Shown here: in pieces, positions 22,616 to 27,392 of the stretch
How the letters are laid out: each line of letters starts with the position of its first letter
Position numbering within the stretch: position 1 is the first letter of the stretch
Assembly (NCBI GenBank): GCA_021732845.1
Contig: JAKFUF010000087.1
Location: 1-46,182 of the forward strand
DNA: 46,182 nt
Direction: 5' to 3'
Source of the DNA: Planctomycetaceae bacterium
GTDB taxonomy: Bacteria > Planctomycetota > Planctomycetia > Planctomycetales > Planctomycetaceae
Made by a program: the position numbers and the translations under genes
The notes under the pieces: model-generated
Seen by the model: the letters and a program-made list of their open reading frames with translations, nothing else
The model's database searches: none
Told to the model about the DNA's origin: nothing

Positions 22616-24823
22616 TTAGCGGCTTCCAGCAAGCTGGCGTTGCAGGGCGTTGACACCGGCGACGATGTCCAGTTCGCGGCCATTGGCGTCTGTGCCACCG
22701 GCGGACTGGATGTCGGGTTCGACACCTGCTCCGGCCATTTCACGGCCTTGCGGAGAGTAGAACTTGGCGGTGGTCAGCCGCACGCTGGCGGCGACCGACT
22801 TCAGCGGAAACAGCGTCTGCACGGTGCCTTTGCCGTAGCTGTGGCGGCCCACGATCAGGCCCCGGCCGTTCTCTTGAATGGCAGCGGCAAAGATCTCGCT
22901 GGCAGAAGCACTGTCTTCGTCCATCAGCACAACCATTGGTGTCTTCCACGTACGGGGTTGCTTGGCAACGGCGTTGCTGTCGTCGCTGGCGGTCCGGCCA
23001 CGGGTGGAGACGATTGTTCCCTGCGGCAGGAACATGTCGGCCACTTCAATCGAGGTCGTCAGCAGTCCACCCGGGTCTCCACGCAGGTCCAGAACGAGCC
23101 CCCGCATTCCCTGCTGGTGGAGAGCCTGCATTGCAGCTTCCATTTCCCGGGCCGACGAGGCAGCGAAGGATTCGAGCTTCATGTAGCCAATCCGATTGGC
23201 GGGATCGATCATCTGCACTTCGGTCACGCTCCTCAGTTCCATCCGACGACGGGTGATCGACATGGACGCCGTCTGCCCGGCCCGTTCAATCTGCAGCACA
23301 GCCACCGAACCTTCTGGTCCCGAGATCATCTGCGTCGCGGCGTCGAGCACCCGGTCGCGGAGATTCTGACCATCCACCGCCACCAGGATGTCATCCTTCT
23401 TCAAGCCGGCTTCCGCGGCGGGGCTGCCGGGAACCGTCTTGAGAATTCGAATCCCCGCGTCGGCTTTTTCAATCGTGATGCCGATGCCCACCATGCTGTC
23501 GCCAAGTTGCTGGTTGCTGGCACGGGCGGCTTCTTCGGGGAGGAAGGCCGAGTACTTGTCCAGAGATTCAACCGCACCTTCCACAAATTCGAGAGCCACG
23601 ACCGACGGCGAAATTCCAAACCGCTGGGCGTACTGCATCGTCTGCCGCATCTGGGTCACGGCTTCCTGGGGTGTCGTACCTGGCTGCTGCGACATCTGCA
23701 GCAGCACCTGCTGCCAGGCCTGCGACTGCTGAGAATTCATCGCCAACCGGTTCGCCTGCACGAAGGTGTTGTTCACACCGGCTTGCGACAGGTTGTACAA
23801 CCCGCGCTGCACGAGCACTTGGACAGGCTGTGGCTGCAAATGTCGGTTCGTCACGTAGTCCATCACTTCCGCATACAGCGCGACTCCCTGTTCAGGAGTC
23901 AGCGTCGCCGCGAACCGCAGCAGCGTCGGATCCTGGTAGCGACGCGTCAGCACCTCCTGGGCGTCAGGACGGTCATTGTTCGCCCTCGGCCGAGAGCTGG
24001 GAGGAGTCTGAGGAGGCAGTGGCTGCTGTTGTTCGCGATAGCTCGGCTCTGGGAAGGACGGTTGCGGATACGACCGTTCTGGGTATGACGGCTGTGGAGC
24101 AGACTGCCGCGGAAAGGCCCGTGGCTGACTTGGCGCGGAAAGGTACTCGACTTCAGAGTCGGAATACGGCTGCTGGCGGCTGTACGGCTGGGGCTGATCG
24201 AAGCCGGCATCCGGACCATAGTTCCTCTGGTCATAGTTGGGACGCGACACCGGGCGGGAACGGCCAGCAGGAGCGGCCAGTGGACGCTGGTACGACGGCG
24301 GCACGGCGTCGAAGACATCCTCCAGTTCCGGCGTTGGGCGCTGGTCAATCCAGTTTTCGTCGTTGCCTCCATTCCGACCATCGTGCCGGTAATTGCTCCG
24401 CCGTTCGATCGGTTGGTATGACTCTGGCAGTCGACGGCCATCCCAAGTCTCGGTGCGGTACGCAGGGGTGACACGGCGGGAGGGAAGCTGCTGAACTTCA
24501 TAACCGTCATACGCGTCGTACGGGAGGGAACGATCCTGTTCGTACTGTTGCCGATCGGGATACCGCTGGCCGGACAGGTCTTCGCCGGACTTGGGCAGAC
24601 CATAGTCTGAGCCACGGCTGCGGGCCGGAGCGTACTGGGGGCGTTCGCCACGATCTTCATAGCGGGAACGCGGGGCGTACTGGCCAGCAGAATAACCGGA
24701 CGGAACCGGCCGGTAACCAGGGGCGGCTTCGGTGTTGACTGGTGCGACCAGTGAGCCACCGACGGTGAGGAGTGCCACGAGTGGCAGGGCTTGGCGACGA
24801 ACAGCGGAGAACAGAGCGATCAT
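22616..24823 (-). CDS. S41-family C-terminal processing peptidase (CtpA/Tsp-like) with long disordered N-terminus
   Basis: The 735-residue protein starts with a signal peptide (1-33), followed by about 250 residues rich in Arg, Tyr, Pro, Gln and Ser with SYPERSYPQPSFPEPSYREQ, probably disordered. A helical region leads to a PDZ domain (about 440-520: VGIGITIE, VPGSPAAEAGLKKDDILVAVDG) and then the S41 protease core. The catalytic Ser640 lies in DSASASEIFAAA and Lys665 in SYGKGTVQTL, 25 residues apart as in Tsp. LDLRGDPGGLL is also present. It should cut proteins outside the cytoplasm by their C-termini. The N-terminal extension is unlike standard CtpA. csrA lies 85 bp upstream on the same strand, and a CsrA-like site overlaps the ribosome-binding site. 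Confidence 0.93.
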   Translation of the reverse strand: MIALFSAVRRQALPLVALLTVGGSLVAPVNTEAAPGYRPVPSGYSAGQYAPRSRYEDRGERPQYAPARSRGSDYGLPKSGEDLSGQRYPDRQQYEQDRSLPYDAYDGYEVQQLPSRRVTPAYRTETWDGRRLPESYQPIERRSNYRHDGRNGGNDENWIDQRPTPELEDVFDAVPPSYQRPLAAPAGRSRPVSRPNYDQRNYGPDAGFDQPQPYSRQQPYSDSEVEYLSAPSQPRAFPRQSAPQPSYPERSYPQPSFPEPSYREQQQPLPPQTPPSSRPRANNDRPDAQEVLTRRYQDPTLLRFAATLTPEQGVALYAEVMDYVTNRHLQPQPVQVLVQRGLYNLSQAGVNNTFVQANRLAMNSQQSQAWQQVLLQMSQQPGTTPQEAVTQMRQTMQYAQRFGISPSVVALEFVEGAVESLDKYSAFLPEEAARASNQQLGDSMVGIGITIEKADAGIRILKTVPGSPAAEAGLKKDDILVAVDGQNLRDRVLDAATQMISGPEGSVAVLQIERAGQTASMSITRRRMELRSVTEVQMIDPANRIGYMKLESFAASSAREMEAAMQALHQQGMRGLVLDLRGDPGGLLTTSIEVADMFLPQGTIVSTRGRTASDDSNAVAKQPRTWKTPMVVLMDEDSASASEIFAAAIQENGRGLIVGRHSYGKGTVQTLFPLKSVAASVRLTTAKFYSPQGREMAGAGVEPDIQSAGGTDANGRELDIVAGVNALQRQLAGSR

Positions 24824-24842
24824 CGTGATGTCCTTGTCCTGG
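24824..24842 (-). promoter_or_regulatory. Possible CsrA-binding sites over the S41 protease ribosome-binding site
   Basis: On the minus strand the 19 nt before the ATG read CCAGGACAAGGACATCACG. ACAAGGACAT is close to the CsrA consensus ACARGGAUGU, and a second GGA lies 6 nt upstream. AAGGA (24835-24831), 7 nt before the ATG, is also the Shine-Dalgarno site, so bound CsrA would block translation. A further AAGGGATGT spans the csrA stop codon at about 24909-24917. Regulation by the adjacent csrA is inferred. Confidence 0.5.
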
Positions 24843-24908
24843 ACGACTTAGATTGAGGCTGAAAAAGAGTAAAGTAGAAGAGTGAAACTGTGGCTTCGAT
24901 TGCGTGGC

Positions 24909-25154
24909 CTACATCCCTTGGCCCGCAGTCGCGGGCACCGCGGCATTCGCTGCCATCCGCTGGCGGCGGGCATCAAGCATGGAGGTCAACGTGGCGCTGG
25001 GAGCTTCGGTGCAGAGTTCAGCCCGCATCACGCGGACATCGGCCGGGGCTTGGATGCCGATCTTGACCGCGTTCTTACCAGTGCGGATTATTTTGATGAC
25101 AATCCCATCGCCGATCTGAATCATTTCTTCGCATTTGCGGGTGAGGACCAACAT
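24909..25154 (-). CDS. csrA: Carbon storage regulator CsrA (RNA-binding translational regulator)
   Basis: CsrA is a dimeric RNA-binding protein that binds GGA motifs in leaders and usually blocks translation. The core MLVLTRKCEEMIQIGDGIVI is textbook. VKIGIQAPADVRVMRAEL carries the second RNA-binding strand, with Arg44 (in VRVMR) equivalent to the key C-terminal Arg. The core is about 55 residues; the 26 extra C-terminal residues are Ala/Arg-rich. AAAGGA sits 7 nt before the ATG and makes a clear Shine-Dalgarno site, unusual for this window. The gene lies 85 bp upstream of the S41 protease gene, same strand. It faces away from the secreted Gly/Tyr-rich protein across an AT-rich spacer. Confidence 0.97.
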   Translation of the reverse strand: MLVLTRKCEEMIQIGDGIVIKIIRTGKNAVKIGIQAPADVRVMRAELCTEAPSATLTSMLDARRQRMAANAAVPATAGQGM

Positions 25155-26552: not shown

Positions 26553-27392
26553 TCAGGCCGCCAGGCGCACCTGGCGGCCCTTTTTCTTTGGCCTGCTCTG
26601 AGCTGATGAGCGGCGCATGTCTGACGGGCGGCGCTCGTCTGATAGGCGGCGCTCGTCTGATAGGCGGCGCTCGTCTGATAGGCGGCGCTCGTCTGATAGG
26701 CGGCGCTCGTCTGATAGGCGGCGCTCGTCTGATAGGCGGCGCTCGTCCGATGGGCGGCGCTCGTCTGATAGGCGGCGCTCGTCCGATGGGCGGCGCTCGT
26801 CCGATGGGCGGCGCTCGTCCGATAGGAGGCGCTCGTCTGATAGGCGGCGCTCGTCTGATAGGCGGCGCTCGTCCGATGGGTGGCGCACGTCTGATAGGCG
26901 GCGCACGTCTGATGGGCGGCGCATGTCTGATGGGTGGCGCACGATCGCGGTTTCCGCTGCCGACCTGCGCGTTGAAGGATCGAATTCAAGCCGCCATCGA
27001 GTCCTCCCCAGTGCGGCGATGCGACGGGTAAACTGCAGTTCCTGCTGATCGGCGGCGAACAGGTTGCGCTGATTCCCTGGATCGTTCTCCCAACCATCGA
27101 CGCGCAGTTCGCGCCAAATCACTGAGTCTTCAGTCCCTCGGGGCTCGGAAGAGGATTCGCACTCCCGCCACGTTGATCGCCCAATGGAAATCGGACTCTT
27201 TCCAACGCCACCCAAATCGGACGACGAGCCACGAGCCGGAGTGCCGACCTGAAGCGGGCGCGGGCAGGCCTCGATCCACTGGGGCATCGTCAATTGCGGC
27301 GGCGGCATTTGTGGCATCGTCAACTGTGGAATCGTCAATTGACTGATCCCCAGCGCCAAGGCGACACAAATCAGAATTCGGCTGTAAGTCAC
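26553..27392 (-). CDS. Predicted exported protein with C-terminal RRLSDE hexapeptide repeats
   Basis: The 279-residue frame starts with a convincing signal peptide ([17 protein letters not shown]), then short [20 protein letters not shown] repeats, a region of mixed composition to residue 150, and about 19 copies of a six-residue repeat ([12 protein letters not shown]) at about 151-264. It ends with a basic [11 protein letters not shown] tail. No family is recognised. All frames on both strands are open through the repeats because the unit is 18 bp. The frame choice therefore rests on the signal peptide and the upstream region. The last codons overlap the hairpin of the convergent gene's terminator. 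The repeat part may be a recent expansion that changed the original C-terminus. Confidence 0.55.
26556..26588 (+). terminator. Rho-independent terminator of the Gly/Tyr-rich protein gene
   Basis: GGCCGCCAGG (26556-26565) pairs perfectly with CCTGGCGGCC (26570-26579) across a CGCA loop, followed by CTTTTTCTTT. The T-run is on the plus strand, so it ends transcripts from 25728-26519. The hairpin also lies inside the last codons of the minus-strand frame. Confidence 0.85.
26601..26942. repeat. Tandem array of nineteen 18-bp units
   Basis: Eighteen units of GTCTGATAGGCGGCGCTC type run without gaps from 26619 to 26942, preceded by a degenerate unit at 26601-26618. Two main variants exist (CTGATAGG and CCGATGGG), mixed along the array, and units near 26871-26942 end in CAC or CAT instead of CTC. 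There are no spacers, so this is a minisatellite and not a CRISPR array. Confidence 0.95.

Follow-up and report, generated by a model that had tools for sequence, protein, structure and literature searches.

A csrA gene and a gene for a putatively exported S41 protease adjoin each other in a 46,182-nt stretch of DNA from a Planctomycetaceae bacterium (assembly GCA_021732845.1, contig JAKFUF010000087.1; the whole stretch is called the window below). The question raised by this locus is whether CsrA controls the translation of its neighbour. Such control may exist, because the well-kept Shine-Dalgarno (SD) site of the protease gene resembles a CsrA site and csrA itself adjoins it. In the reading preferred here, to which a probability of about one half is given, the protease SD most likely doubles as a single predicted CsrA-binding site, and CsrA control of the protease is regarded as plausible.

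The csrA-protease gene pair and its promoter-like element

The csrA gene (25154..24909, minus strand) encodes a protein of 81 amino acids that matches PF02599 with an E-value of 4e-20. The protease gene (24823..22616, minus strand) encodes 735 amino acids with an S41 domain (PF03572, E 1e-52) and a PDZ domain matched by PF17820/PF13180; its N-terminus is signal-peptide-like, as judged by hydrophobicity without a signal-peptide program. The two genes are co-oriented, and 85 nt separate the csrA stop from the protease ATG. The naming of csrA as the upstream gene in a preliminary description of this DNA is correct.

Of 170 genomes searched in the family, 113 have an S41 ortholog with an E-value of 1e-98 or better, and 97 such loci (17 + 80) were read. 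In 94 of these 97 loci, from 40 genera, csrA lies directly upstream of the protease gene, and all 94 upstream genes were verified as CsrA by phmmer. Two of the remaining loci (L289 and L304) show no csrA and one (L259) stops at a contig edge; a further locus without csrA within 1.5 kb (L056, genome G002) was kept outside the 97. Protease starts were assigned by a rule blind to the SD, which lowers the figures relative to starts chosen by eye (17/17 with GGA) and which probably set wrong starts in a few cases (e.g. L257, L294, L306, L308 and L313). Two loci with csrA (L046 and L332) received no start by this rule, leaving 92 loci from 39 genera for the counts on protease leaders.

The csrA-protease gap has a median length of 90 nt and ranges from 29 to 324 nt among the paired loci. 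This bears on a possible translational coupling, in which ribosomes that finish csrA would reinitiate at the protease gene and the SD would serve that purpose. The shared strand, the kept gene order and a probable single transcript would all suit such coupling, but gaps of this size are long for ordinary reinitiation, and the explanation is considered very improbable.

A promoter-like element precedes the pair. When scored against the sigma-54 consensus TGGCAC-N5-TTGC, the sequence CGGCACAGCAACTGC (25279-25265, minus strand; GG-N10-GC), 110 nt before the csrA ATG, matches at 8 of 10 positions. Of the 94 paired loci, 89 (37.5 of 40 genera) have an element scoring at least 8/10 before csrA, and 76 have one scoring at least 9. 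The corresponding background was 23 and 3 of 489 genes, which is conservative, as is the A.GGA background used below, because the own S41 gene and the csrA-S41 regions of five relatives are included. On the other strand, only 3/94 loci scored at least 8 and 1/94 at least 9. No such element was found inside the csrA-S41 gap in any of 82 loci, 12 of the 94 paired loci being left out because their gap was shorter than 60 nt or no start was available; a sigma-70 scan of the coding strand gave no match.

Since the promoter-like element stands before csrA and none is found in the gap, csrA and the protease gene are probably co-transcribed from it. This result supports co-transcription and not binding, and thus leaves the odds of CsrA binding unchanged. 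Sigma-54 promoters have been reported for csrA of Planctomycetia (PMC12316311), and the promoter type found here is the same. The new points are that it stands so regularly before the two genes and that the gap lacks it; the passages of that report on sigma-54-dependent csrA make no mention of a protease gene or of a CsrA target. In relatives, a sigma-54-type element scoring at least 8/10 also precedes 12 of 16 unlinked csrA genes (L015, L016, L023, L024, L027, L028, L033 and others), while in the own genome it precedes just one of the eight csrA genes outside the pair.

The Shine-Dalgarno site of the protease gene

The protease leader runs into the start codon as ...GUCC-AGGACAAGGACAUCACG-AUG. 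Within it, ACAAGGACAU (24837-24828, minus strand), at -14 to -5 relative to the ATG, is at once the SD site and a CsrA-like motif that agrees at 8 of 10 positions with the CsrA consensus ACARGGAUGU, in which a location of the GGA in a hairpin loop is preferred but not required (PMC7652899). Its GGA (24833-24831, minus strand), at -10 to -8, is the conserved element. A CsrA-like motif over the SD had been proposed in the preliminary description, and this holds, although the distance of 8-17 nt before the ATG given there was off by about 3 nt.

Sites of this quality are not common in the genome. The window and a further 373 kb of this genome were scanned for motifs at -20 to -5 of an ATG: AAGGA precedes 8/193 genes (this gene included), A.GGA 15/193 and ACARGGA 2/193, one of the two being the own S41 gene. 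About 398 kb from relatives gave AAGGA in 12/191 and A.GGA in 28/191 genes, and genes with signal-peptide-like starts gave 13/117 and 26/117, respectively. A clean AAGGA SD is thus uncommon in these genomes. A strong SD stands out all the more because few genes of Planctomycetes have an SD at all (PMC5397173).

Across the 39 genera, each weighted equally, the S41 leaders contain GGA in 36.0, AGGA in 30.6, A.GGA in 28.2, AAGGA in 24.8 and ACARGGA in 6.5; by locus, GGA is found in 80, A.GGA in 57 and AAGGA in 52 of 92. If the GGA nearest to -11 is taken, 77 of the 80 loci with GGA have its first G between -14 and -10. By comparison, A.GGA was found in 43/384 ordinary genes (11%; every ATG within the first 90 nt being allowed as a start) and in 11/58 genes for ribosomal proteins S12 and L27 (19%), of which 4/58 have AAGGA. 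Among 20 unlinked S41 paralogs, none has AGGA, two have A.GGA and ten have GGA. Each of these paralogs is from a different genome of the family, and 15 of the 20 genomes also belong to the pair set; in the control set of S12, L27 and csrA genes, no start was obtained for 2/30 S12 loci and 1/29 csrA loci. Fisher tests on rounded genus counts gave p values of 5e-16 for A.GGA against background, 2e-7 for A.GGA against S12 and L27, and 4e-9 for AGGA against the unlinked S41 paralogs, with an overall range of 2e-7 to 2e-18 for the A.GGA, AGGA and AAGGA cores; these values, like the z values given for the folds below, are too optimistic because the genera share ancestry. By these comparisons, genera with the gene pair have kept the protease SD unusually well. 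The unlinked S41 paralogs (L333-L352) often carry a G-run (GAGGGGGAA) before the start in place of AAGGA.

A well-kept SD has another possible explanation, namely that it is a strong site securing translation of the protease in organisms whose SDs are mostly weak, and that the likeness to a CsrA site comes from the shared GGA without any role for CsrA. This is a serious contender, with a chance that falls somewhat short of even. The GGA stands at normal SD spacing, and a strong SD would by itself yield the AAGGA core. In addition, the SDs of the paired csrA genes are equally strong and contain A.GGA in about 28/40 genera. However, most S41 sites lack the GGAG extension, which is found in 9.5/39 genera against 24.4/40 for the csrA leaders and is thus rarer before the protease (p 0.001). 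In the samples read, AAGGA is also seldom found before S12 and L27 genes and never before the unlinked S41 paralogs, which argues against a strong SD as the whole explanation.

Hairpin loops, second sites and the csrA leader

The folding of the leaders gives a further means of weighing a CsrA site against a plain SD. The SD GGA of S41 leaders was placed in a hairpin loop with a mean probability of 0.306, compared with 0.113 after motif-preserving shuffling (z 5.3). In a longer-flank loop profile, S41 leaders were hardly separable from csrA leaders, and the test was then rerun at five flank lengths with shuffles. At flanks of 12, 16, 22, 30 and 40 nt (at most three loci folded per genus), the S41 excess had z values of 3.4-5.3, against -1.3 to 1.8 for the csrA leaders, and loop placement across genera was two to four times the shuffle frequency. 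Shuffles of local composition gave z values of 6.2 (S41) and 2.0 (csrA), and a stem-counting method gave 2.1 to 3.9 and -1.8 to -3.5, respectively. The effect has limits. A loop probability above 0.5 is reached in just 5-17 of 39 genera, depending on flank length. At flanks of 30 and 40 nt, the observed S41 values (0.201 and 0.146) are hardly higher than those of csrA (0.171 and 0.138), so that the contrast at long flanks resides in the shuffle expectation. Nor is the effect unique to the SD, since a weak loop excess is seen in background AGGA leaders (z 2.1) and another excess for upstream GGAs in S41 leaders (z 3.9); in this background comparison, at most four loci were folded per genus and the background GGA class was drawn from the first 120 genes only.

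The stems that present the GGA differ among loci, as in AUCGAA[AAGGACAGA]UUCGAU of L051, GGAA[UAGGA]UUCC of L292, CAACA[AGGAU]UGUUG of L329 and CGG[AAGGAA]CCG of L309; among these four, the hairpin of L051 alone is individually significant. In one genus (L267-L274), a hairpin lies just before the S41 SD (GGAGGGG), and by eye both sides of its stem change between species (AGUCGC..GCGACU and AACCGC..GCGGUU).

The SD GGA of the own species almost never occupies a hairpin loop (probability 0.008 or less) and lies instead in the stem of a predicted hairpin, GUCC[AGGACAA]GGAC (24830..24844, minus strand; -4.9 kcal/mol in short context). The fold of the own protease leader is no better than that of shuffles, and a longer context gives another fold. 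This hairpin may be compared with that of RsmA-controlled psl in P. aeruginosa (PMC7652899): a hairpin with the SD in the stem and a GGA in the loop is common to both, but the hairpin of the own species is weak and does no better than shuffles, and its conservation was not found. The unremarkable fold fits a strong SD and nothing more, as does the finding that csrA genes with equally strong SDs show little or no loop excess. The loop excess of the SD GGA across the family points the other way, since selection to keep the SD open should act against loops. Loop placement in the family as a whole thus favours a CsrA site, while the own leader alone does not decide.

A second GGA (24839-24837, minus strand) lies 6 nt upstream of the SD GGA, as stated in the preliminary description, and a further motif, AAGGGATGT (RNA: AAGGGAUGU; 24919-24911, minus strand), runs into the TAG stop of csrA. 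A CsrA dimer might accordingly be imagined on the two GGAs, aided by the motif at the csrA stop. Both motifs are present, and two GGAs are found in the S41 leaders of 17.8/39 genera, slightly above genes already having one (p 0.03). The second GGA occupies the 7-nt loop of the weak 4-bp hairpin, with a loop probability of 0.20-0.60 by flank length, and the upstream GGAs of S41 leaders are loop-biased, as noted above. However, one CsrA dimer bridges sites 10-63 nt apart (PMC7652899), and spacings of 6 nt and 83 nt both fall outside this range; with 6 nt being less than 10 nt, the two GGAs of the S41 leader cannot be bridged by one dimer. Neither GGA nor A.GGA is enriched over shuffles at -90 to -22 of the S41 leaders (z -1.25 and 0.31, respectively). 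The motif at the csrA stop recurs in none of the other species (1/94 pairs), GGA occurs near the csrA stop in 15/94 pairs, less often than in control windows within the gene (0.49), and the stop motif is probably there by chance. The letters of both motifs are thus as described earlier, but their standing as additional CsrA sites is not: of the conservation anticipated wherever the gene pair is kept, only that of the SD GGA is found (36/39 genera, with A.GGA in 28). A dual-site protease leader was rejected for its spacing and poor conservation, even though existing upstream GGAs favour loops, and the stop motif was rejected as a CsrA site for its single occurrence; binding of a dimer to these sites is most unlikely.

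The best two-site layout at this locus is, by sequence, that of the csrA leader rather than that of the protease leader. A hairpin, CGGCUGC[GGGAUAG]GCAGCCG (25197-25177, minus strand), has a 7-bp stem and a 7-nt loop with a GGA at 25189-25187, and the SD GGA of csrA (25164-25162, minus strand) follows the loop GGA by 25 nt. This spacing is within 10-63 nt, so that the two may form a candidate two-site operator. The hairpin is more stable than shuffles (z -2.76, with 2/200 equally stable), less distinctly so with wider flanks (z -1.70, 10/200), and its GGA is in the loop with a probability of 1.0 (0.16 for shuffles). Loop GGAs upstream of csrA show a mild enrichment across 40 genera (z 2.8). 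This arrangement is like that of two-site repression of glgC (PMC7652899), a likeness that belongs to the csrA leader as a candidate and not to the protease leader. The glgC-like layout suggests autoregulation of csrA through the GGA of the leader hairpin and that of the SD. The hairpin may instead be read as a terminator, as it was flagged terminator-like by a simple scan.

CsrA paralogs, FliW and known systems

The CsrA protein of the window keeps L4, R6, V42 and R44 in an ungapped alignment to residues 1-51 of RsmE (2jpp); R6 and V42 are presumably RNA-binding residues. In the paired CsrA proteins, L4 is kept in 92/94 and R44 in 93/94, the sole exception for R44 being L314, the start of which was drawn too far upstream. 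Both L4 and R44 have been named as CsrA RNA-binding residues (PMC7652899). Nine CsrA-family genes are present in the own genome, and 2-12 matches per genome were found in 40 genomes (own included), whereas most genomes inspected elsewhere carry one CsrA gene (PMC7366521). Planctomycetes have been named among the phyla that may use FliW (PMC4682653). A FliW match was obtained in 9 of 15 genomes from other families and in none of 25 from this one.

If the protease SD is indeed a CsrA site, the sigma-54-type promoter before csrA would give one csrA-protease transcript, and free CsrA, either the paired one or any of the eight others in the genome, would occupy the SD of the protease gene and reduce translation of the protease. 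CsrA would also limit csrA, through the loop GGA that precedes the csrA SD. The scheme also supposes some release of CsrA; FliW matched 0/25 genomes of this family. More broadly, though this is a tentative picture and rather unlikely as a whole, the family may possess a self-contained module without FliW, in which a sigma-54 promoter yields a single transcript for a CsrA paralog and its target; this CsrA would limit its own translation via an operator of hairpin and SD, and that of an exported protease via an SD that is often displayed in a loop, and the many paralogs of these genomes may each serve local targets.

The single-site CsrA target of Baker 2007 is reportedly E. coli hfq. The locus described here is like single-site repression in having a single GGA-type site, which here overlaps the SD, and differs in that the site is predicted and belongs to an exported protease adjoining csrA in planctomycetes. 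Baker 2007 is cited for a single-site target in PMC7652899. The CsrA-FliW-Hag system of Bacillus is similar in that CsrA covers the SD of the mRNA of an exported protein, as is predicted here, but the protein is a flagellin there and a protease here, and FliW was not matched in the genomes of this family. Among 17 publications that mention both CsrA and planctomycetes, none deals with CsrA targets in that phylum, judging by title. With its marked promoter and SD, a gene pair that persists in about 40 genera would offer a small direct test of planctomycete CsrA function, in genomes where several CsrA genes are present and, for this family, FliW was not found.

Several other features were seen in the window and in related genomes. 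An Rfam scan of the window matched no family; hence no known CsrB-like RNA is present in it, and a CsrB-like sponge was set aside. An 18-nt tandem repeat of 18 copies (26610-26940) was likewise set aside as a sponge, because an open reading frame on the minus strand (27392..26553) passes through it and reads as a repeat protein, with SDERRL repeats after a signal-peptide-like start and no Pfam match. Near the C-terminus of the paired CsrA proteins, a short S-D/E-Q-F/Y-P motif is found in 19/94 (12/40 genera) and in 0/17 unlinked csrA loci examined; the CsrA of the window itself lacks it. Elsewhere in the own genome, a csrA paralog (L070, G000:C21) lies, by eye, about 260 nt before a flagellin-like gene. 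A gene at 9677-10429 of L075 (plus strand; G000:C4) encodes a CsrA domain (PF02599, residues 1-51) fused to a response-regulator receiver domain (PF00072, residues 130-241), a fusion that might couple RNA binding to phosphorylation.
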